Shown one piece after another: positions 38,023-49,135 of a stretch of DNA of 64,000 nt. The position numbers and the translations under genes were made by a program. The stretch is from positions 127,674 to 191,673 of the forward strand of contig QHXX01000021.1 in assembly GCA_003223135.1 (NCBI GenBank), in the 5' to 3' direction. This DNA is from Acidobacteriota bacterium (GTDB lineage: Bacteria; Acidobacteriota; Polarisedimenticolia; Gp22-AA2). Below the pieces are notes generated by a model, which saw nothing but the letters and a program-made list of their open reading frames with translations, made no database searches and was not told the origin of the DNA. Every line of letters starts with the position of its first letter. Within the stretch, counting starts at the first letter, position 1.

Positions 38023-38916
38023 CTAACCCACGCGTCTGCGGTACTCCTCCCGTCTGAGCGGAACGCATCGCATCGCCCGGAATCCGGTGGCGCGCGCCTC
38101 GGCGTGCGCCCGTTCGATCGCGGCCGGCGCCCTGAAGACGCCGAAGACCGCCGAGCCGCTGCCTGTCATCGCGGCCGCCGCCGCGCCGGCCGCCACCAGG
38201 CGATCCTTGATCGCCCCGATGCGAGGACAGAGGGAGCGCGCGTACGGTTCCAGATCATTCCCCGCGCGCACCCAAGTCTCAACCTCCTCGACGAGGTTGC
38301 CCTTCAGGGTGGGCTTGAAGTCGGCCATCTTACTGATTTTCAAGGCAGGTGTCAACGACGCGGAGGCCGCGGCATAGACCTCGCGCGTGGAGAGAGGCAC
38401 CCCGGGAACGACCAGCAGGATCTCGTAACCTCCCAGATCCTCCAGGGGTTCGACGACCGTTCCGGTCCCGGTCAGGAGGGCCGTGCCGCCGCAAAGGAAG
38501 AATGGCACGTCGGCCCCGATCGTGGCGGCCACGGCCTCGAGGTCCCGGTCGGAAAGGTCGAGGCGCCACATCCGGCGAAGCCCCACGAGGGTCGCCGCGG
38601 CGTCGCTGCTCCCGCCGCCCAGGCCGGCGCCCGCCGGTATCATTTTACGGATCCGGATGTGGACGCCGCGCGGCGATGAGCGCGGCAACGGCAGGGCGGC
38701 GGCCGCCCGCCATGCCAGATTGCCCGGGCCCTCAGGGATGGCCGGGTCGTCCACCTCGAGGGTGATGCCCTCCGACCGGGCCTCGAGGGACAGAGTGTCG
38801 TGCAGGCTGACGGTCTGAACCGCGGTCTCGATGTCGTGAAAGCCATCGGTCCTCGTGCCGATGATCTTCAGGCAGAGGTTGATCTTCGCGTAGGCGGGGA
38901 GGTCCAGCCGGCTCAG
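38023..38916 (-). CDS. ispE: 4-diphosphocytidyl-2-C-methyl-D-erythritol kinase IspE (apparent CTG start)
   Basis: A GHMP kinase of the MEP isoprenoid pathway, about 297 residues. Motifs: PAYAKINLCLKI near the N-terminus, PAGAGLGGGSSDAAATLVGL (ATP loop) and AMTGSGSAVFGVF. The frame is open far upstream but contains no ATG, GTG or TTG near the conserved N-terminus. The best start is CTG at 38916-38914, which overlaps the upstream lolB-like stop as CTGA, the same geometry as the ATGA/GTGA junctions elsewhere here; a second CTG lies three codons on. The enzyme itself is certain; the exact start is not. Confidence 0.92.
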   Translation of the reverse strand: MSRLDLPAYAKINLCLKIIGTRTDGFHDIETAVQTVSLHDTLSLEARSEGITLEVDDPAIPEGPGNLAWRAAAALPLPRSSPRGVHIRIRKMIPAGAGLGGGSSDAAATLVGLRRMWRLDLSDRDLEAVAATIGADVPFFLCGGTALLTGTGTVVEPLEDLGGYEILLVVPGVPLSTREVYAAASASLTPALKISKMADFKPTLKGNLVEEVETWVRAGNDLEPYARSLCPRIGAIKDRLVAAGAAAAAMTGSGSAVFGVFRAPAAIERAHAEARATGFRAMRCVPLRREEYRRRVG

Positions 38917-39764
38917 TTCGCGGGGTGGGACTCCGCCCCCGGAAGACCCGGGCCGGCCGGAAAGAGGGAGAGCGTCGTGCTTTCGAACCCCTCCGGGATC
39001 TCCGGCGTGAAAATCGCTTCGGGGACGTCGCTGCCCCACGGTCCCTCCACGGCGGAGAGCTGAATGAGGGTCGCCTTGCCCGACAGACGCAGCCGCACCT
39101 GCCTGGGCCAGCGAGGGCCGAGGCCCTTGTCGTAACCGCCGTAGTCGGCCTCGAGAATGATAGCACCGCTGATCCCCTCGCTCACCGTCGCCGACAGGAG
39201 CGTGCCACCGCGATCCTCGCAGCGGGCCTGGTACCGGACGTCTGCCGGGGGGCAGCTGACCTCGTACCAGGAGAGCGTGCGCCCGAACGTGGCCGCCGGG
39301 CGGGTCATGACCTCGACGCGCATCGATTCCTCTGTGCACATCGGGCGCCCCGTCAGGAGCGCAATCAGGCCGGGTGCCTCGAGAGGCACGCCCAGGAACC
39401 TTTCGATCGCCTTCGCCGAGGGCCCGGCCTGCTCGTAGACCCGCTGGGCGGGCAGGAGCGCCAGGGTCGTATCGGGCGTGGCCGTCACGACGAGCCATGG
39501 TCCGCCCGAAGGACCGAAGAACTCGAGACGCGCGCGATCGGGCGGCAGAATCGCGACCGCCAGGCGGAAGCGGCCCTTGCCTTTGGGTCCTTCCGATTCG
39601 CCCCGAAACAAGGCCCGATATCCCCGGGCGGCCGGCGAGGGGTACGGGTTCCGGGTGCCGGCCGGATGGACGCCGGCGCAGGCACAGACGAGCAGGACCT
39701 GCGCCGCCAGGCCGAACGCGAAGAGGCGCCTCCGCTGTTGTTGTGACCGGGGCACGCCGATCAC
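38913..39764 (-). CDS. LolB-like/DUF4292 outer-membrane lipoprotein
   Basis: A 283-residue protein with a signal sequence and a lipobox-like VCAC (Cys near residue 30). The middle has the DUF4292/LolB-like sequence (FFGPSGGPWLVVTATPDT, LLPAQRVYEQAGPS) and an overall beta-rich fold suited to an unclosed barrel. LolB genes often sit next to ispE, as here, so a role in lipoprotein insertion at the outer membrane is likely but inferred. The GTG start at 39764 overlaps the TPR gene stop (GTGA). Confidence 0.75.
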   Translation of the reverse strand: MIGVPRSQQQRRRLFAFGLAAQVLLVCACAGVHPAGTRNPYPSPAARGYRALFRGESEGPKGKGRFRLAVAILPPDRARLEFFGPSGGPWLVVTATPDTTLALLPAQRVYEQAGPSAKAIERFLGVPLEAPGLIALLTGRPMCTEESMRVEVMTRPAATFGRTLSWYEVSCPPADVRYQARCEDRGGTLLSATVSEGISGAIILEADYGGYDKGLGPRWPRQVRLRLSGKATLIQLSAVEGPWGSDVPEAIFTPEIPEGFESTTLSLFPAGPGLPGAESHPAN

Positions 39765-41520
39765 GGCGTGACCTTCTGGCCTGTCTGGACCTTCAGGATT
39801 TTTTTGCGCACCCGGTCTGACTCTTCGTGTCCGCGTTGCAGCGCAGCCTCCCACTCGCGGAGCGCCTCCTCCGCGCGACCGATCCGGATCAGGAGGTCTC
39901 CCAGATGCTCGCGGATCGTCGGGTCGGCCTCGTCGGCGGCGAGCGCCGCGCGCAGGCTCTTCTCGGAATCGTCGTACAGGGCCAGCTTGAACTGCACCCA
40001 CCCAAGACTGTCGAGGTAGGCCGCGTTCTGCGGGTCGAGCGCCAGGGCGCGCTGCACGTAGCCCATCGCTTCTCGAAGCCTCACACCGCGATCGGCCAGC
40101 ATGTAGCCAAGGTAGTTGAGAGCCATCGCGTTCTTAGGGTTGATCTGAATCGAGCGGTACAGGAGGCGCTCGGCCTCGACCGCGCGGCCCTGTCGCTCCA
40201 GGGACGCGCCCCGCGCGAACAGGAGGGCGTCGTCCTCCGGATGCCGGCGCGTGCCTTCCTTCAAGAAGGATTCGGCCAGAGGGTAATGCTTCTGGCGCAG
40301 GAGCGCCTCCGACACGCGCGCATACGCCTCGGAAGTGCCGCCCGCGTCCCGCAACAGCCCCTTCGTGAACGATCCGATGGCCGCGGCGTACTGGCGTCCG
40401 TCCATCTGCAGGAGGCCGATCTGCGAATAGGCCAGCGCCAGGATGGAGGACTCACGCTCGGTCACCGCTCCTCGGCCGCTGGCAAGATCGATGATCTCCT
40501 GGTAACCCTTGAGGGCCTGCGCCGCGGACCCCTCTTTCTGCTGCACGCGGGCGCGGTGGAAACGCGCCTCCAGATTTCCCGGTTCCTTCTCGAGCAGACG
40601 ATCGTAGGTCTCGAGCGCTCCCTTGACGTCGCCCGCGCCCTCGTAGGCCTGGGCGAGGGGCAGAAGACCGCGTGTGTCCGCCGGGTCGATCGCCTGCGCC
40701 TGCAGGAGCGCACGCATCGCCTCTTTGTAGCGGCCCGCAAGGAGGTGCAGCGTGCCGATGCGAGTGCGCACGTACGGCGATTCGGTATTTGCGTCGAGGA
40801 CCATCCCGTAGACCGCAATCGCTTCGTCGTACTTCTTCTCGAACTCCAGGAGGGAGGCCAGCGCGTCGGCGGCCTCGAGGTTTCCCGGAGCCCGGACGAC
40901 GACCTGGCGCAACACGGTCTCCGCTTCGGGGTAGCGCCCGGTGCGGGCGAACACTTTGCCGAGGAGGAGCGACAGCGGCCCGTCGAGCGCGCGCTTGCGG
41001 GCGAACTCCACGAGAAGCTCCCCCGCCTCTTTGAGGCGTCCTGTGTGGTAGTAAAGCTCCGCAAGAGCCCGGCAGGCATCCTGGTCCGCGGGGTCGGCCC
41101 GCAAGGCGGCGCGGTATTGCTCGATGGCCAGCGCAATCTGGGCATCGGAATCGGTCCCTTCACGCGCCCTGCTCAGATGGATGTCGCCCAGGAGGCGATG
41201 AGCGTCCCCCATGTCCGGATTGGAGGCAGCCACCCTCTCGGCCAGAACGGCGGCCCCTGCAAAATCATTCAAGGAAAACCGCAACTGGGCCAGCTCCATG
41301 AGGAGCGACGGCGAGGAGTCCCTCGCCACTGCGTGCTCCATCTGCTCGAGCGCGTGCAGGTAGTCCCGCTCCATGATGAGCTGTTGCGCCAGCGAGTAGT
41401 GGTAGTAGGCCTCCGGCCGCACCGGGTCCCTGCCTGGCAAATCGGCGGCCGCAAAGACAGCACCGCCGAAAGGCGCGACAAGCGCCAGCGCGACGGCCGC
41501 CCGGAGCGACCGGGCGTCGG

Positions 41521-41524
<4 letters not shown>
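39761..41524 (-). CDS. Exported TPR-repeat protein
   Basis: A 587-residue protein with an N-terminal signal sequence (residues ~6-27, ending VFAAAD) and at least ten tandem TPR units filling most of residues 35-575, for example ALAIEQYRAALRADPADQDA, AIDPADTRGLLPLAQAYEGA and LALDPQNAAYLDSLGWVQF. It is probably periplasmic or outer-membrane associated. The ATG at 41524 overlaps the kinase stop (ATGA). Its place between a Ser/Thr kinase and a LolB-like lipoprotein suggests an envelope scaffold role, which is inference. Confidence 0.85.
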
Positions 41525-43083
<1,559 letters not shown>

Positions 43084-43215: not shown

Positions 43216-44388
43216 TCAGGCGGCCTTGCGCTCGGCCGAAAGCGCCTGACCGCGCAGGTAGTCGATGGCCTTTTTCTGCTGCGGGTCCCCGTCATCCGTC
43301 AGGCGACCGTCGATCGGCACGTCCGGCTGGATCCCCTGGCCATGCCATTCCTTCCCCGCCGGGGACAGGTACTTGCCGGTGGCCAGATAGAGGCCGTCGC
43401 CGTGTTGGAGCGGCAGGAGCCTGCGAACCGCCCCATCACCCCAGGTGCGCTGCCCGAGAATCGACGCGCCGAGATCGTCACGCAGGGCGGCCGCCAGGAC
43501 CTCGCAGACCCCGGCGGTCCCCGTATCGGTCAGTATCGCCACCGGACCGCTCCACGCGAGGCGGCGCCCGTCGGCCTTGAAGGACCTGTCCCCCTCGTAT
43601 CGGTCGGTCATGGTGACGATGCGGCCTTCGGACACGAACAGGCTGGCGGCGCCGATCCCCTCCGCCAGGGCGTCCGAGGCGCACCCCCGGAGGTCGAGGA
43701 GCAGGCGCGTGGCTCCCCGCTTCTTCAGGGACGCGATCGCCTGGTCCATCCGCCGGGCGTCGCCCTCGCGAAGACCGGCGATCTGCACCACGCCGACGTC
43801 ACCCGGCTGGAGGACGGGGGCAGGTGAGGGCGGCGAGAGGACCCTCCGGATCAATGAGACCGTCCTGCGCCCCGCCGAATCAATCGGACTGAGATTGATG
43901 GTCGTCTTGCTTCCCGGCTTGCCGGACAATGCTTGCGTCGCTTCCCAGATTCCGAGCTGTCGCGTCGAGCGGCCGTCGATCGTCACCAGGACGTCCCCGG
44001 TCTGGAGGCCTGCCTCCCCCGCGGGAGAGCCCGCCGCCACCGAAACGACGATGATGTAGCCGCGCCTCTTCGAAAGGGTCAGTCCCACACCCGCCGGTCC
44101 ATTGTTCTCTCCCCTGTAGGCCCGCTCGTAGCGCGCCGGGGCGAGGTACTCATTCGCCGGATCGAGGGACTCCAGCATTCCGCGGTAGGCCCCTTCCATG
44201 AGCACATCGAGCTGCACCGGCTGCACGTAGTTGTGGACGATCAGGTACAGCGCCTCGTTGAACAGCTTGAGATAGCTGTAAGTACCCTCGACCGCGACGA
44301 CGCGTCCGATCATCGCCCCGGACACGGTGAACAGGACCAGTGCCGTGGAGAGGACCAGCATCAGCTTTCTGTCCGACGTCACCTTCAT
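43216..44388 (-). CDS. CtpA-type S41 peptidase homologue lacking catalytic Ser and Lys
   Basis: A 390-residue exported or anchored protein: membrane segment at ~9-32, N-terminal helical domain (YSYLKLFNEALYLIVHNYV, LDPANEYL), PDZ domain ~95-185, then an S41 peptidase fold. In active C-terminal processing proteases the catalytic Ser lies in G-T/S-A-S-A-S-E and the Lys in TFGKG. Here these read GTAGVCE (residues 290-296) and TWGDG (315-319): the Ser is Gly293 and the Lys is Asp318. It is therefore predicted to be a pseudoprotease. The ATG at 44388 has GGAGG upstream; it follows the envC-like gene by 14 bp. Confidence 0.9.
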   Translation of the reverse strand: MKVTSDRKLMLVLSTALVLFTVSGAMIGRVVAVEGTYSYLKLFNEALYLIVHNYVQPVQLDVLMEGAYRGMLESLDPANEYLAPARYERAYRGENNGPAGVGLTLSKRRGYIIVVSVAAGSPAGEAGLQTGDVLVTIDGRSTRQLGIWEATQALSGKPGSKTTINLSPIDSAGRRTVSLIRRVLSPPSPAPVLQPGDVGVVQIAGLREGDARRMDQAIASLKKRGATRLLLDLRGCASDALAEGIGAASLFVSEGRIVTMTDRYEGDRSFKADGRRLAWSGPVAILTDTGTAGVCEVLAAALRDDLGASILGQRTWGDGAVRRLLPLQHGDGLYLATGKYLSPAGKEWHGQGIQPDVPIDGRLTDDGDPQQKKAIDYLRGQALSAERKAA

Positions 44389-44402: not shown

Positions 44403-45686
44403 TCACGGGATCTTGCGCGTTTGCCTCTGATCGCGGAGCGTCGCGCGCCTGCGCTCGGCCAGGGCGCCGGGCGCCCCGCGCAGCCACCGCGCCGGATCCT
44501 CCGCCTTTCCGTCGTGCCGTATCTCGAAGTAGAGCCCCGGCTCGTCGAACGACCCGCCCTGCCCGGACCGCGCGATGACGTCGCCCCTCGTGACGTCCTG
44601 ACCGTTCAGGACCAGCCGCTCGTCCACGTGCCCGTAAATTGAAAGGTAGGAATCCCCGTGGTCGATCACGACCATCTGGCCGTACCCCTTGAACCAGTCG
44701 CTGAAGATCACCCGCCCGTCGAACACGGCGCGCACGTTCTGGCCTGGCGAGGCGGCGATGTCGATACCCGGGTGCGGCACCTCCGTGCTGAACCGCGGGT
44801 GTTTCACGTTTCCGAACGGGACCGCGAGCCGTCCCCTGGCCGGCCAGTCGAGATGCCCGCGGTAGCGGGCGAAGCCGAGCGACGGGACCGCCTCTGCCGG
44901 GCCCGAGCGCGCGAGACGATCCAAGAGGGCGCGGATCTCCCCCTCGACCTGGACCAGCTCGCCAAGGAGGGCTCGCTGGGACGCCTGCTCCCTTTGCAGG
45001 CTCGCGAGGACGGCGCCCTTGCGCTCGTGCACACCGCGCAGCTCGCGCGCCTTGCCCTCGAGCGACGCCTGCAGCTCGCGCAGCCGCTCGCCACGCGACC
45101 GCAGCTCGGCGAGGACCGCGACCAGCCTGTCGCGATCGGCCCGGTACATGTCGATGCGCCCGGCCTCGCCGAGGCTCACGGCCTCGATGGCCCGGTACCC
45201 TGAGGCCACCTGCGCCGGCGACGAGGCTGCCGTCACGACGCGCAGATACCGCGCCGGCCCGATCTTATATGTCTCCCGCAGGTAGTCGCGCAGACCGCTT
45301 TCGGTCTGCGCCAGCCGCGCCTCGAGCGCTTCCGCCTCCCGGCGCGCGGAGCGCTCTCCCTCCGCGGCGGCGCGGACCTCGCCGCGCAACGACTCCGACT
45401 CGCGCCGGAGCAGCGCCATCCGAAGGTCCAGCTCTTCCATGGCGTCGAGGACGGAACCCGCCGACGTCTCACCTTGCTCCAGACGGCGGCGCAGGTCCTC
45501 GATCTCGTAATGGACCCTTTGCAGGCGCGCTTCCTCCTCCTGCCGGCGCGTCTGCCGTTGGCCGGAGTCGTCCGCCGCCCCGGCGCGCGTCTCGCGCGGC
45601 GCGGCCGAGCAGACGGCCAGGAGCGCCAGCCCGGCCGCGGCGCCGCGCGCCCGTCTTCGGATCTCAGCGCAGGAGCGACCGTCCAT
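44403..45686 (-). CDS. EnvC-like LytM/M23 murein hydrolase activator
   Basis: A 427-residue exported protein: signal sequence (~14-35), long coiled coil (~45-265) and a C-terminal LytM/M23 domain (~290-405). The domain keeps PHPGIDIA and YGHVDE, but the last zinc-ligand motif, usually HFEIR, is LYFEIRH, as in the non-catalytic activator EnvC. I therefore favour an amidase activator used in septal cell-wall splitting rather than an endopeptidase. It overlaps the preceding phosphodiesterase-like gene by 23 bp and precedes the ctpA homologue, a common pairing. Confidence 0.85.
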   Translation of the reverse strand: MDGRSCAEIRRRARGAAAGLALLAVCSAAPRETRAGAADDSGQRQTRRQEEEARLQRVHYEIEDLRRRLEQGETSAGSVLDAMEELDLRMALLRRESESLRGEVRAAAEGERSARREAEALEARLAQTESGLRDYLRETYKIGPARYLRVVTAASSPAQVASGYRAIEAVSLGEAGRIDMYRADRDRLVAVLAELRSRGERLRELQASLEGKARELRGVHERKGAVLASLQREQASQRALLGELVQVEGEIRALLDRLARSGPAEAVPSLGFARYRGHLDWPARGRLAVPFGNVKHPRFSTEVPHPGIDIAASPGQNVRAVFDGRVIFSDWFKGYGQMVVIDHGDSYLSIYGHVDERLVLNGQDVTRGDVIARSGQGGSFDEPGLYFEIRHDGKAEDPARWLRGAPGALAERRRATLRDQRQTRKIP

Positions 45687-47958
45687 CGATCCCCTCGACC
45701 GGCGGTACGCCCAGAAGGGCCAGGACCGTCGGGTAGATGTCGGCGATGCCGGGATCGGCCCGGGCCAGCCGCACGTTGCTGAACAGGACTCCGGGCACCA
45801 ACGACGGGTCGTTGGAGCAGTGATCGCCGCTCCAGGCCTTCAGATTGTCTTCGAAGATCTTCGGAGGCACCTCGCCCAGCGCCGTCTGCCAGCCGATGCG
45901 GTAGTGCCTGCTGTTGGCCGCGCGCAGGTCCGGGACGATGCGCGGGTCGTACCCCGAATAGATCTCCTCGCGCCGGTAGACGCGCTGCACCGGCTTCTCC
46001 CCCGTCTCCGGATCCACCAACGCCTCGAGCTTTTGGACGAGTGCTGTGCGCACGTCATCGTAGTCCCGCCCCGGGACCACGCTCCCCTGCGGCTCGCGGC
46101 CCATCAGGTTGATGTAGATGTTGCCGAGCCCCATGGCATACGCCCTGGTGCGGGACCAGTCGACGTAGCGGAAGAACTCCCCCAGCTCGCCCTTGTCGAA
46201 CAGGTCCTCGAGCGTCTTGCCGCCGGTCGAGCTCCCCTGCCGGAGCGTCATGAAGCCGTTCTTGACCAGCCAGGTGTTGTAGTTGACGCCGCGGCGAAAG
46301 GACGCGAAGCCGTGATCCGAACAGATGATGAGTGCCGTCCGGGGGCCGATCGTCTGCCGCGCCTCCCCGACGATCCGGTCCATCCGCTCGTAGGACTTCG
46401 GGATCTCGTTGGCGTACTGCGCGGCGAGGCGCGCATCGTACAGCGGGTGACCGGGATCGAACAGCCGCCAGAGCATGTGGCCGACGCGGTCGGTGAAATC
46501 GAACACCTGGACGTACAGCCGATCGTCACCCTTCTGCAGGAAGCGCCTCATCATCTGGAGCTGCTTTTCGGCCGTGAACTCCATGTCCTCCACGAAGTGA
46601 CGCTCGTCCGTCAGTCCGGAGGGCAGAGACCAGGTGTCGATCGGCCAGCCGAGCGTCTTGAACAGTCCGAATTCCTGGACCAGGTCGCGCGCGAACGAGG
46701 TCGGGCCGGTGAACGGGACCGGCTGGCACTCCGGATGGAAATTGAGCGGAGAGGCGTAGAGCTTCAGTTCGGGCGACAAAGACAGAAGCTTGAAGCGGAT
46801 GATTCCCCGGAGTCCTGCCAGCCGGTCGACGATCGGGTTGACGCGAATCGGCACCACGAACCACTGGCTCCACTCGCCCACCCGGAGGGTCTGCATGACG
46901 CCGGCGACATCGATTGTCGCCTGATCGTCGGTGGCCTCGATCCGGAACGGGACGTCGAGGCGGCGGGGCACGCCGCGCGCCTGGAGCTTCTTTTCCATCT
47001 CGGCGCGCGCGGCCGTGCGGGCCTGGCCCTCGAGGCCGCGGACCGCGTCGTCGACCAGGAAGTCGTAGAACGGCTGGTTCAGGGGACCAAGGATGGCGGT
47101 GTCGAGAGTACCGCGTTTGCTCTTCAAGTGGACGATCTCGACGCTGAATTGATTGTCGGACAACGCGAGCGACGGATCGGACGTGTAGAACGACGGCGAG
47201 CCGATGCGGCCACGCATGTCGGGGACTCCCAGGCCGGAGAGCATCGACTCGTTGTGATGGTCCTCCGCCGGGAAGGTGGCGGGGACGTTGATCACTCGCG
47301 TCGTGAGTCCCGCGTCGGCCGCGGCCGACCAGAACGGCTGGCCCTTGCGCGGGTTCGAGGCGGTCGGCACTTCCTTCGGGAGGTACCGCGCCGCCAGGAA
47401 AGCGGACCCTCCTCCACCGGACGCGGCCGCGACCATCGCCAGAAGAAGAGCGACACCCGGGCGCCGCAGCAGCACAAAGACCGCCACGAGAACGAAAAGA
47501 CCCAATCCGATGGCGGCGATCGATCCGAGCACCGCCACGTTGTTCGCTCCGAACAGGAGAGTCTTCCGCCCGGTCTTGATCATGGCGAACTCAGGAAGAT
47601 ACGTACCGTCGGTGCGCCTCAGGAAATCGAAGATCTCCGTGCGTCCTGGATTCAGGCCGGTCGTAAACGAGGCCCACGAGACCGGAGTCTGGGGCGGGTT
47701 CGTGGGGCGCAGAGGCGCGTAGAACCCCTCGTCGCGCAAGGCCTTGAGCTGAGGCAACCGTCCCTCCGCCATGTATCGCTCCACCAGACCCGCATCCGCG
47801 CCGTCGAACCCGAGGATGACGACCCTGTCGTAGGAAGCGGCTCCGAGCAAGATGGGCAGAAAAGCCGCCCCGATCCACAGCACTCTTCCGGGCCGCCCTG
47901 ACGCCAAGCCCCTTCCCGGTCTCGAGGTCAAGAGGGAGATCCTCCGATGGGTCAACAA
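45664..47958 (-). CDS. Type I phosphodiesterase/nucleotide pyrophosphatase (alkaline phosphatase superfamily)
   Basis: A 764-residue protein. After an N-terminal hydrophobic segment the metal site begins (VVILGFDGADAGLVERYM), with the nucleophile region TPVSWASFTTGLNPG; two membrane helices (~150-190) are inserted early, and CSDHGFASFRRGVN supplies later metal ligands. The C-terminus (PTVLALLGVPPVEGIDGRSLL) is typical of this group. Substrate is unknown; family members act on phosphodiesters or phosphoglycerol groups of the envelope. The first start is TTG 47958, some 20 nt after the predicted transcript start; a GTG about 27 codons on is an alternative. Confidence 0.83.
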   Translation of the reverse strand: MLTHRRISLLTSRPGRGLASGRPGRVLWIGAAFLPILLGAASYDRVVILGFDGADAGLVERYMAEGRLPQLKALRDEGFYAPLRPTNPPQTPVSWASFTTGLNPGRTEIFDFLRRTDGTYLPEFAMIKTGRKTLLFGANNVAVLGSIAAIGLGLFVLVAVFVLLRRPGVALLLAMVAAASGGGGSAFLAARYLPKEVPTASNPRKGQPFWSAAADAGLTTRVINVPATFPAEDHHNESMLSGLGVPDMRGRIGSPSFYTSDPSLALSDNQFSVEIVHLKSKRGTLDTAILGPLNQPFYDFLVDDAVRGLEGQARTAARAEMEKKLQARGVPRRLDVPFRIEATDDQATIDVAGVMQTLRVGEWSQWFVVPIRVNPIVDRLAGLRGIIRFKLLSLSPELKLYASPLNFHPECQPVPFTGPTSFARDLVQEFGLFKTLGWPIDTWSLPSGLTDERHFVEDMEFTAEKQLQMMRRFLQKGDDRLYVQVFDFTDRVGHMLWRLFDPGHPLYDARLAAQYANEIPKSYERMDRIVGEARQTIGPRTALIICSDHGFASFRRGVNYNTWLVKNGFMTLRQGSSTGGKTLEDLFDKGELGEFFRYVDWSRTRAYAMGLGNIYINLMGREPQGSVVPGRDYDDVRTALVQKLEALVDPETGEKPVQRVYRREEIYSGYDPRIVPDLRAANSRHYRIGWQTALGEVPPKIFEDNLKAWSGDHCSNDPSLVPGVLFSNVRLARADPGIADIYPTVLALLGVPPVEGIDGRSLLR

Positions 47959-48111: not shown

Positions 48112-49135
48112 GTGATCGCCGGGCTCACCACGAAGCCTGAAAGACTTGTCGTCGGGATCATGTCCGGCACCTCGGCCGATGGCGTCGATGCCGCCCTTCT
48201 GCAGATACGCGGCACCGGCGAGGCCTTGTCCTGGCGCCTGTTGCGTCACGAAACCTTGCATTACTCGGTGAAGGTGCGAGACCTGATAAGGCGCTGCTCC
48301 GAGCCCGGCAGCGGCGACGCGGCCTCGATCTGTCGACTCAATGTGCTCCTGGGAGAGCTGTTCGCGCGCGCCGTCACGCACGTCGCCGAGCGCGCCGGCG
48401 TCGAGCCGAAGTCGATCGATCTCATCGGCTCGCACGGCCAGACTCTGCAGAACCTGCCCGGCCCCGTGACGATTACGGGGATTACCGTGCGATCACGGGG
48501 GCGTCGCCAGCCTCACCGCGATCCCGGCCAACGCCGCCGCAGATCGCGTGCTCGGCTTCGACAGCGGGCCGGGGAACATGGTCATCGATGGACTCGTCGC
48601 CCATATGACGGGCGGTCGAGAGGCCTTCGATCACGGCGGACGCTACGGACGGAAGGGCAAGTCCGCGGACGAGCTCCTGGCGCGCCTCCTCGATCACCCT
48701 TACCTGCTCACGCCACCGCCCAAGTCCTGTGGCCGGGAGGAGTTCGGGCGCCCCTTCCTCGAGAGCATCCTCAAGGAGAACGCCGCCCTCCCGCCCAACG
48801 ACCTGATCGCCACCGCCACCCGGTTCACCGCCGAGTCGATCGCCTTCGCCTGCCGGCGCTACGTCATGCCGCACAACGTGTACGAAGAGGCGATCGTGTC
48901 GGGAGGCGGAGCGCGCAACGACTACCTGATGGAGCAGCTGAGGGCCGCCATCCCGGAGTTGTCGATCAAGGAAAGCGACGAGTACGGCCTGCCGGCGGCC
49001 GCGAAGGAGGCCGCGTCCTTCGCCCTTCTCGCCAACGAGGCGATCCACGGAACTCCGAACAACCTGCCCACGGTCACCGGCGCCGCGCGCGCCGTGGTGC
49101 TTGGCACGATCGTCTTCGGCCGGACGAGTCAATGA
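48112..49135 (+). pseudogene. anmK: Anhydro-N-acetylmuramic acid kinase, internally deleted and frameshifted
   Basis: AnmK phosphorylates and opens anhydro-MurNAc during cell-wall recycling. The 5' part (48112 to about 48490) encodes VVGIMSGTSADGVDAALLQI through DLIGSHGQTLQNLPGP; the 3' part (about 48497-49135) continues in the +2 frame relative to it with GGVASLTAIPANA, GFDSGPGNMVIDG and VSGGGARNDYLMEQL. About 45 codons that normally join these segments, including the LQIGEP and GGQGAPLVP motifs, are missing, and the frame changes. The gene cannot give an intact kinase as written. It could be a true pseudogene or an assembly collapse. Confidence 0.85.

Follow-up and report, generated by a model that had tools for sequence, protein, structure and literature searches.

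The gene designated pseudo-ctpA, which lies in the 64,000-nucleotide stretch of Acidobacteriota DNA analyzed here (the window), is best explained as a member of an ancient, unnamed family of paralogs of S41A carboxyl-terminal proteases (CTPs) that has turned into a pseudoprotease in this phylum. Judged by its sequences, this second copy is an old, selected, noncutting protein, often encoded alongside cell-division genes, that occurs beside a working CtpA across nearly all sampled Acidobacteriota. A literature search, with most subscription papers outside its reach, found no published account of a pseudo-CtpA from this phylum. The new findings reported here are an -AA tail on the second copies, an EnvC-like neighbor with a dead M23 domain, and a homolog of LbcA encoded downstream (Table 1).

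The predicted protein retains the layout of an S41A protease, in which an S41 core carries an inserted PDZ domain and is preceded by an N-terminal dimerization region. Pfam matches to S41 (1.2e-30), PDZ (6e-11), and a CtpB_N-like region all exceed their cut-offs, the NCBIfam model TIGR00225 (prc) scores 191 bits, just under its 218.6 cut-off, and the alignment to Pseudomonas aeruginosa CtpA (7rpq) is continuous over 7rpq residues 40-360. These matches bear out a preliminary description of this DNA, which had judged the PDZ and S41 fold to be well kept. Fold retention is argued here from sequence alignment; a structure prediction made from a four-row alignment gave a pLDDT of 37.6 and was set aside. 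Residues Y54, V55, G66, and D76 of the dimerization-type region are invariant across the class, and this region is among the best conserved parts of the protein.

Table 1. Features of the pseudo-ctpA locus, in window positions. Gene calls and start codons are based on open reading frames.
Feature	Position	Strand	Basis or remark
pseudo-ctpA	43216..44388	(-)	390 aa; inner-membrane anchor, N-terminal dimerization region, PDZ, S41 core lacking the catalytic residues (predicted)
Hydrophobic N-terminal helix, residues 8-31	44296..44367	(-)	Likely signal anchor; sequence
N-terminal dimerization-type region, residues 37-90	44119..44280	(-)	Alignment
PDZ domain, residues 97-165	43894..44100	(-)	Pfam
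S41 protease-fold domain, residues 197-358	43315..43800	(-)	Pfam
DLRGCASD in place of oxyanion-loop motif DLRxNPGG	43672..43695	(-)	Comparison with canonical CtpA
Gly293 at catalytic Ser site (P. aeruginosa Ser302)	43510..43512	(-)	Alignment
Asp318 at catalytic Lys site (Lys327)	43435..43437	(-)	Alignment
Arg322 at catalytic Gln site (Gln331)	43423..43425	(-)	Alignment
-KAA tail of pseudo-CtpA	43219..43227	(-)	-AA end shared by 72/117 second copies
EnvC-like protein	44403..45686	(-)	M23 keeps HxxxD, HxH zinc ligand lost (GLYFEIR); amidase-activator type
Type I phosphodiesterase/nucleotide pyrophosphatase family gene	45664..47958	(-)	Overlaps envC; same place in most EnvC-bearing class loci
Ser/Thr protein kinase	41521..43083	(-)	Stop overlaps TPR start codon; in family f1, separates pseudo-ctpA from the TPR gene
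LbcA-like TPR protein	39761..41524	(-)	587 aa; best nondesigned PDB match PA4667/LbcA
LolB-like putative lipoprotein	38913..39760 (approximate)	(-)	Position, lipobox-like Cys; no Pfam match
IspE-like kinase	38023..38930 (approximate)	(-)	Named from sequence; completes lbcA-lolB-ispE order

Catalytic positions were mapped on 7rpq and on the structure of its S302A mutant (7rqh). The triad of P. aeruginosa CtpA is formed by Ser302, Lys327, and Gln331 (PMC8764530), and the corresponding residues in the window protein are Gly293, Asp318, and Arg322. The oxyanion motif has likewise been replaced, such that NPGG is gone. The preliminary description had reported Ser changed to Gly within GTAGVCE (43501-43521) and Lys changed to Asp within TWGDG (43432-43446), and the alignment agrees with both motifs and their coordinates. 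Its account of the extent of loss was incomplete, since it saw two of the four changes and missed those of the Gln and the oxyanion loop. With the entire triad and the oxyanion motif gone, the protein should not cut peptide bonds, and its sequence makes a noncatalytic state near certain. Cys295 was considered as a substitute nucleophile and rejected, given that it occurs in family f1 only, whereas most other families have Ala or a different residue there.

The genome from which the window derives carries four S41 genes, namely pseudo-ctpA, an intact ctpA on a separate contig (C118), and two further genes whose open frames are much longer and which, from that length, we guess to be tricorn-like. 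A match is present in every genome of the family (8), the order (12), and the class (41) to which this one belongs. Sequences from the class are of two kinds: a CtpA of 520-570 aa with SASASE and GKG intact, which is also encoded separately in class genomes, and a second copy of 380-410 aa that lacks the Lys and nearly always the Ser. All readable orthologs of pseudo-CtpA in the family, order, and class are without the Lys, and nearly all are without the Ser. Within the family, dN/dS is 0.13-0.27 for the second copy versus 0.07-0.19 for the intact CtpA. Constraint on pseudo-ctpA is therefore somewhat weaker than on intact ctpA, yet clear. The earlier proposal that the protein was selected for a nonproteolytic role is thus strongly supported by its membership in one clade (see below), broad conservation, purifying selection, and the intact CtpA paralog in the genome.

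One alternative is that the gene is simply decaying or was misread. The assembly is a draft, and anmK nearby is frameshifted. However, independent genomes throughout the phylum have the same losses in intact reading frames, and these orthologs together with the dN/dS values rule out decay or sequencing error, to which we give practically no credence. In the broken anmK (48112-49135, (+)), the two halves are in separate frames and lack the intervening stretch that relatives (L054-L057) have; the gap is either a true deletion or an assembly fault.

A profile built from the class copies matched all 396 Acidobacteriota genomes searched, where a match may be either copy. For this reason, second copies were fetched and read at about one per family, yielding 117 sequences from ~70 families of Acidobacteriota, alongside 49 canonical CtpAs. 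The full Ser-Lys-Gln triad is present in 49/49 canonical CtpAs but in only 4/117 second copies, and is thus absent from 113. Among the latter set of 117, 9 copies keep Ser and 7 keep Lys, with 4 keeping the two together, and Gln is present in 62. Gly occupies the Ser site in 93 copies, and the Lys site can be any of 16 other residues. The loci examined from f13, f15, f82, and two genomes of f34 yielded canonical-type copies only. The second copies form one clade relative to canonical CtpAs (support 100/98), and P. aeruginosa and Helicobacter pylori CtpA fell on the canonical side in a first tree. The two groups also differ in the number of residues that follow the core (median 36 for second copies and 134 for canonical CtpA). 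Trp348 was rejected as a phylum-wide signature of the second copies, as it is invariant within the class only.

All four second copies with a full triad (L159, L177, L283, and L285) belong to family f33 and keep an oxyanion motif, DLRxNxGG. From these sequences, they are likely still active members of an otherwise dead clade. Two other f33 copies have lost the Ser in one case and both Ser and Lys in the other. If regain is excluded (Dollo), at least 18 losses of Ser and at least 10 of Lys are counted. Undirected parsimony gives 4 Ser and 3 Lys changes, but allows the triad to be regained in f33, and a tree in which the six Lys-bearing rows are forced into one clade is not rejected (p 0.144). 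Because Ser in f33 is encoded by TCC or TCA, neither of which is one step from the GGN codons for Gly, and because the oxyanion motif is kept, we favor retention over regain. An active ancestor followed by repeated loss is therefore our preferred, though not proven, history.

The gene directly upstream also encodes a protein that has lost a catalytic feature. The EnvC-like gene ends 14 nt before pseudo-ctpA, and its M23 domain lacks the zinc-ligand His (LYFEIR in the window), as do all 27 EnvC sequences from the class and 35/39 outside it (3 keep a His, and 1 could not be read). Its sequence thus marks it as a dead M23 protein of the kind found in amidase activators. EnvC is directly upstream of pseudo-ctpA in 26/37 testable class loci and for 39/73 sampled copies outside the class, with the two genes often within 100 nt or overlapping. 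The class order is phosphodiesterase, EnvC, pseudo-CtpA, the kinase in family f1, and the TPR gene. Genes for FtsEX and Amidase_3 are present in the window's genome. In P. aeruginosa, ctpA also follows envC, in an envC-ctpA-PA5135 operon (PMC12569750).

Nevertheless, ~45 sampled loci (for example in f3, f18, f29, f35, and f38) have the pseudoprotease without an EnvC neighbor. In two genomes of f3 and one of f31, EnvC is encoded elsewhere, and a search of eight genomes from f18, f60, f80, f29, f35, and f20 returned short M23-domain matches only. Neighbors at loci without adjacent EnvC include RuvX/MltG-like, PBP1, and Polysacc_deac_2 genes, of which several, but not all, are wall genes. The f3 loci (L082-L092) have no EnvC or phosphodiesterase gene upstream, and several have in its stead a universal-stress-type gene, named from sequence. 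Kinase matches follow pseudo-ctpA in several f3 loci as well.

Downstream, the TPR gene encodes a homolog of PA4667/LbcA and precedes LolB- and IspE-like genes, matching the lbcA-lolB-ipk operon of P. aeruginosa (PMC6050968). The LolB- and IspE-like names come from sequence and gene order rather than from a family scan. The match to PA4667/LbcA (E 1.4e-26) covers residues 401-582, and thus is direct only in the C-terminal 180 residues. No lipobox was seen in the N-terminus of the TPR protein, leaving it without this mark of LbcA as an outer-membrane lipoprotein. Read from sequence and gene order, the locus that unites EnvC, dead CtpA, and LbcA-like genes corresponds to two P. aeruginosa operons placed side by side, with the protease dead. 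An LbcA-like gene is near pseudo-ctpA in the class, and is located elsewhere in genomes outside it.

The C-terminus of the second copies offers another clue. An -AA end is found in 72/117 second copies (48 of these are -KAA or -RAA) versus 2/626 neighboring genes, the background being other genes in the same loci rather than whole proteomes, and in 0/49 canonical CtpAs and 0/27 EnvC proteins. Fisher tests give p values of 5e-66 overall and 1e-30 outside the class, where the set contains about one copy per family; because the copies are related, these values overstate independence. The residues that precede the tail are hardly alignable. The full-triad f33 copies also carry -KKAA, and therefore the tail either predates or is independent of catalytic loss. 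The PDZ domains of tail-specific CTPs bind nonpolar C-termini (PMC7481392).

Given the -AA tail and the LbcA-like TPR gene close by, we infer that the CtpA/LbcA system is at least as likely a partner of pseudo-CtpA as EnvC. Our leading proposal, to which we assign a probability of roughly 0.4, is that the protein is a periplasmic, noncutting pseudoprotease subunit of an LbcA/CtpA-type complex, its presumed partner, and helps control wall hydrolases, for example in the EnvC-amidase pathway. Through its dimerization region, pseudo-CtpA would pair with another CtpA-type subunit, either a further copy of itself or active CtpA, and would also contact the LbcA-like TPR protein. Protein tails would be held by its PDZ domain, while the exposed -KAA tail of pseudo-CtpA would dock in a PDZ domain, in the simplest case the one in active CtpA. 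Wall hydrolases and their activators would in this way be tethered or have their turnover tuned, and in genomes with EnvC these would include the FtsEX-EnvC-amidase pathway.

A permanently inactive partner is mechanically plausible because only one subunit is active per N-dimer in H. pylori CtpA (PMC12749690) and per CtpA dimer in LbcA-activated P. aeruginosa CtpA (PMC11021448). However, because the long C-terminal region of canonical CtpA is absent, pseudo-CtpA may not enter the same oligomer. Other observations also weigh against an LbcA/CtpA subunit, namely the lack of an adjacent LbcA-like gene outside the class, the many families without an EnvC neighbor, the 45/117 copies without the -AA tail, and the missing lipobox and purely C-terminal LbcA match of the TPR protein. 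A more specific version, which we regard as doubtful, is that a dedicated pseudo-CtpA associates with active CtpA and LbcA as the constantly resting member of an asymmetric dimer and controls wall hydrolases, with PDZ domains receiving its -KAA end, and that catalysis was lost repeatedly in parallel while f33 kept the ancestral active form.

One competing possibility, raised in the preliminary description, is that pseudo-CtpA is a PDZ scaffold dedicated to EnvC, holding this dead M23 protein and timing amidase activation without CtpA or LbcA. The genomes support this proposal in part, in that EnvC is frequently adjacent, is itself noncatalytic, and coexists with FtsEX and an amidase. Yet the same adjacency accompanies an active CtpA in P. 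aeruginosa, so it need not by itself mean binding, and the ~45 loci without an EnvC neighbor, along with the short M23-domain matches in six neighbor-less families, lead us to consider a dedicated EnvC scaffold unlikely. The tail itself suggests another explanation, wherein pseudo-CtpA is a regulated substrate or decoy of active CtpA. The -AA end would then be a degron through which pseudo-CtpA competes with, or reports on, other CtpA substrates, and the S41 core would only bind. Enrichment of more than 100-fold over neighboring genes and the recognition of nonpolar tails by tail-specific proteases are consistent with this proposal. We nonetheless find it rather improbable, since the 45 copies lacking the tail would be left out, the intact-triad f33 copies show that the tail is not tied to catalytic loss, and a pure degron does not explain a conserved fold.

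The S41 fold might instead have been recruited for ligand binding, with a wall fragment or lipid occupying the old substrate groove. The retinoid-binding protein IRBP (RBP3) has an S41 fold with no protease role and is a distant match to pseudo-CtpA, and the prevalence of Gly at the Ser site and the high variability of the Lys site would fit such a change. However, we saw no new pocket motif shared across the phylum, Trp348 being invariant within the class only, and we judge this reading quite improbable. IRBP also differs as a vertebrate protein with repeated modules that was recovered only as a distant PDB match (E 7e-8).

Among the closest known systems is that of P. aeruginosa CtpA with its adaptor LbcA, with which the window shares the NDR-PDZ-S41 layout over residues 40-360, the position after envC, and a nearby LbcA homolog in an lbcA-lolB-ispE-like order. 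In contrast to P. aeruginosa CtpA, the window protein has neither the triad nor the oxyanion motif, has a membrane-anchor-like N-terminus, and ends in a short -KAA C-terminus in place of the C-terminal dimerization region, while the active CtpA of its genome is encoded elsewhere. A precedent for a degenerate-site protease paralog kept beside an active one is MamO of magnetotactic bacteria, a dead HtrA paralog that activates MamE without catalysis (PMC4794232), although that pair has an HtrA/trypsin fold rather than S41, serves magnetosome function, and is narrowly distributed. The Escherichia coli EnvC-FtsEX-AmiA/B system resembles the window in having a dead M23 activator, here encoded upstream, and in the presence of FtsEX and Amidase_3 genes. 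The E. coli locus differs in that no ctpA lies between envC and sddA (PMC12569750).

Bacterial CTPs have been studied as regulators of wall hydrolases in a small number of proteobacterial systems. A dead CtpA maintained throughout a phylum beside the live enzyme, at a locus uniting envC, ctpA-type, and lbcA-type genes, would demonstrate that this fold does nonproteolytic work valuable enough to persist for the age of the phylum, and the series from an intact triad in f33 to none would be a natural experiment on that job. The family also matters for genome annotation, where matches to S41 peptidase models would place pseudo-CtpAs among the peptidases.
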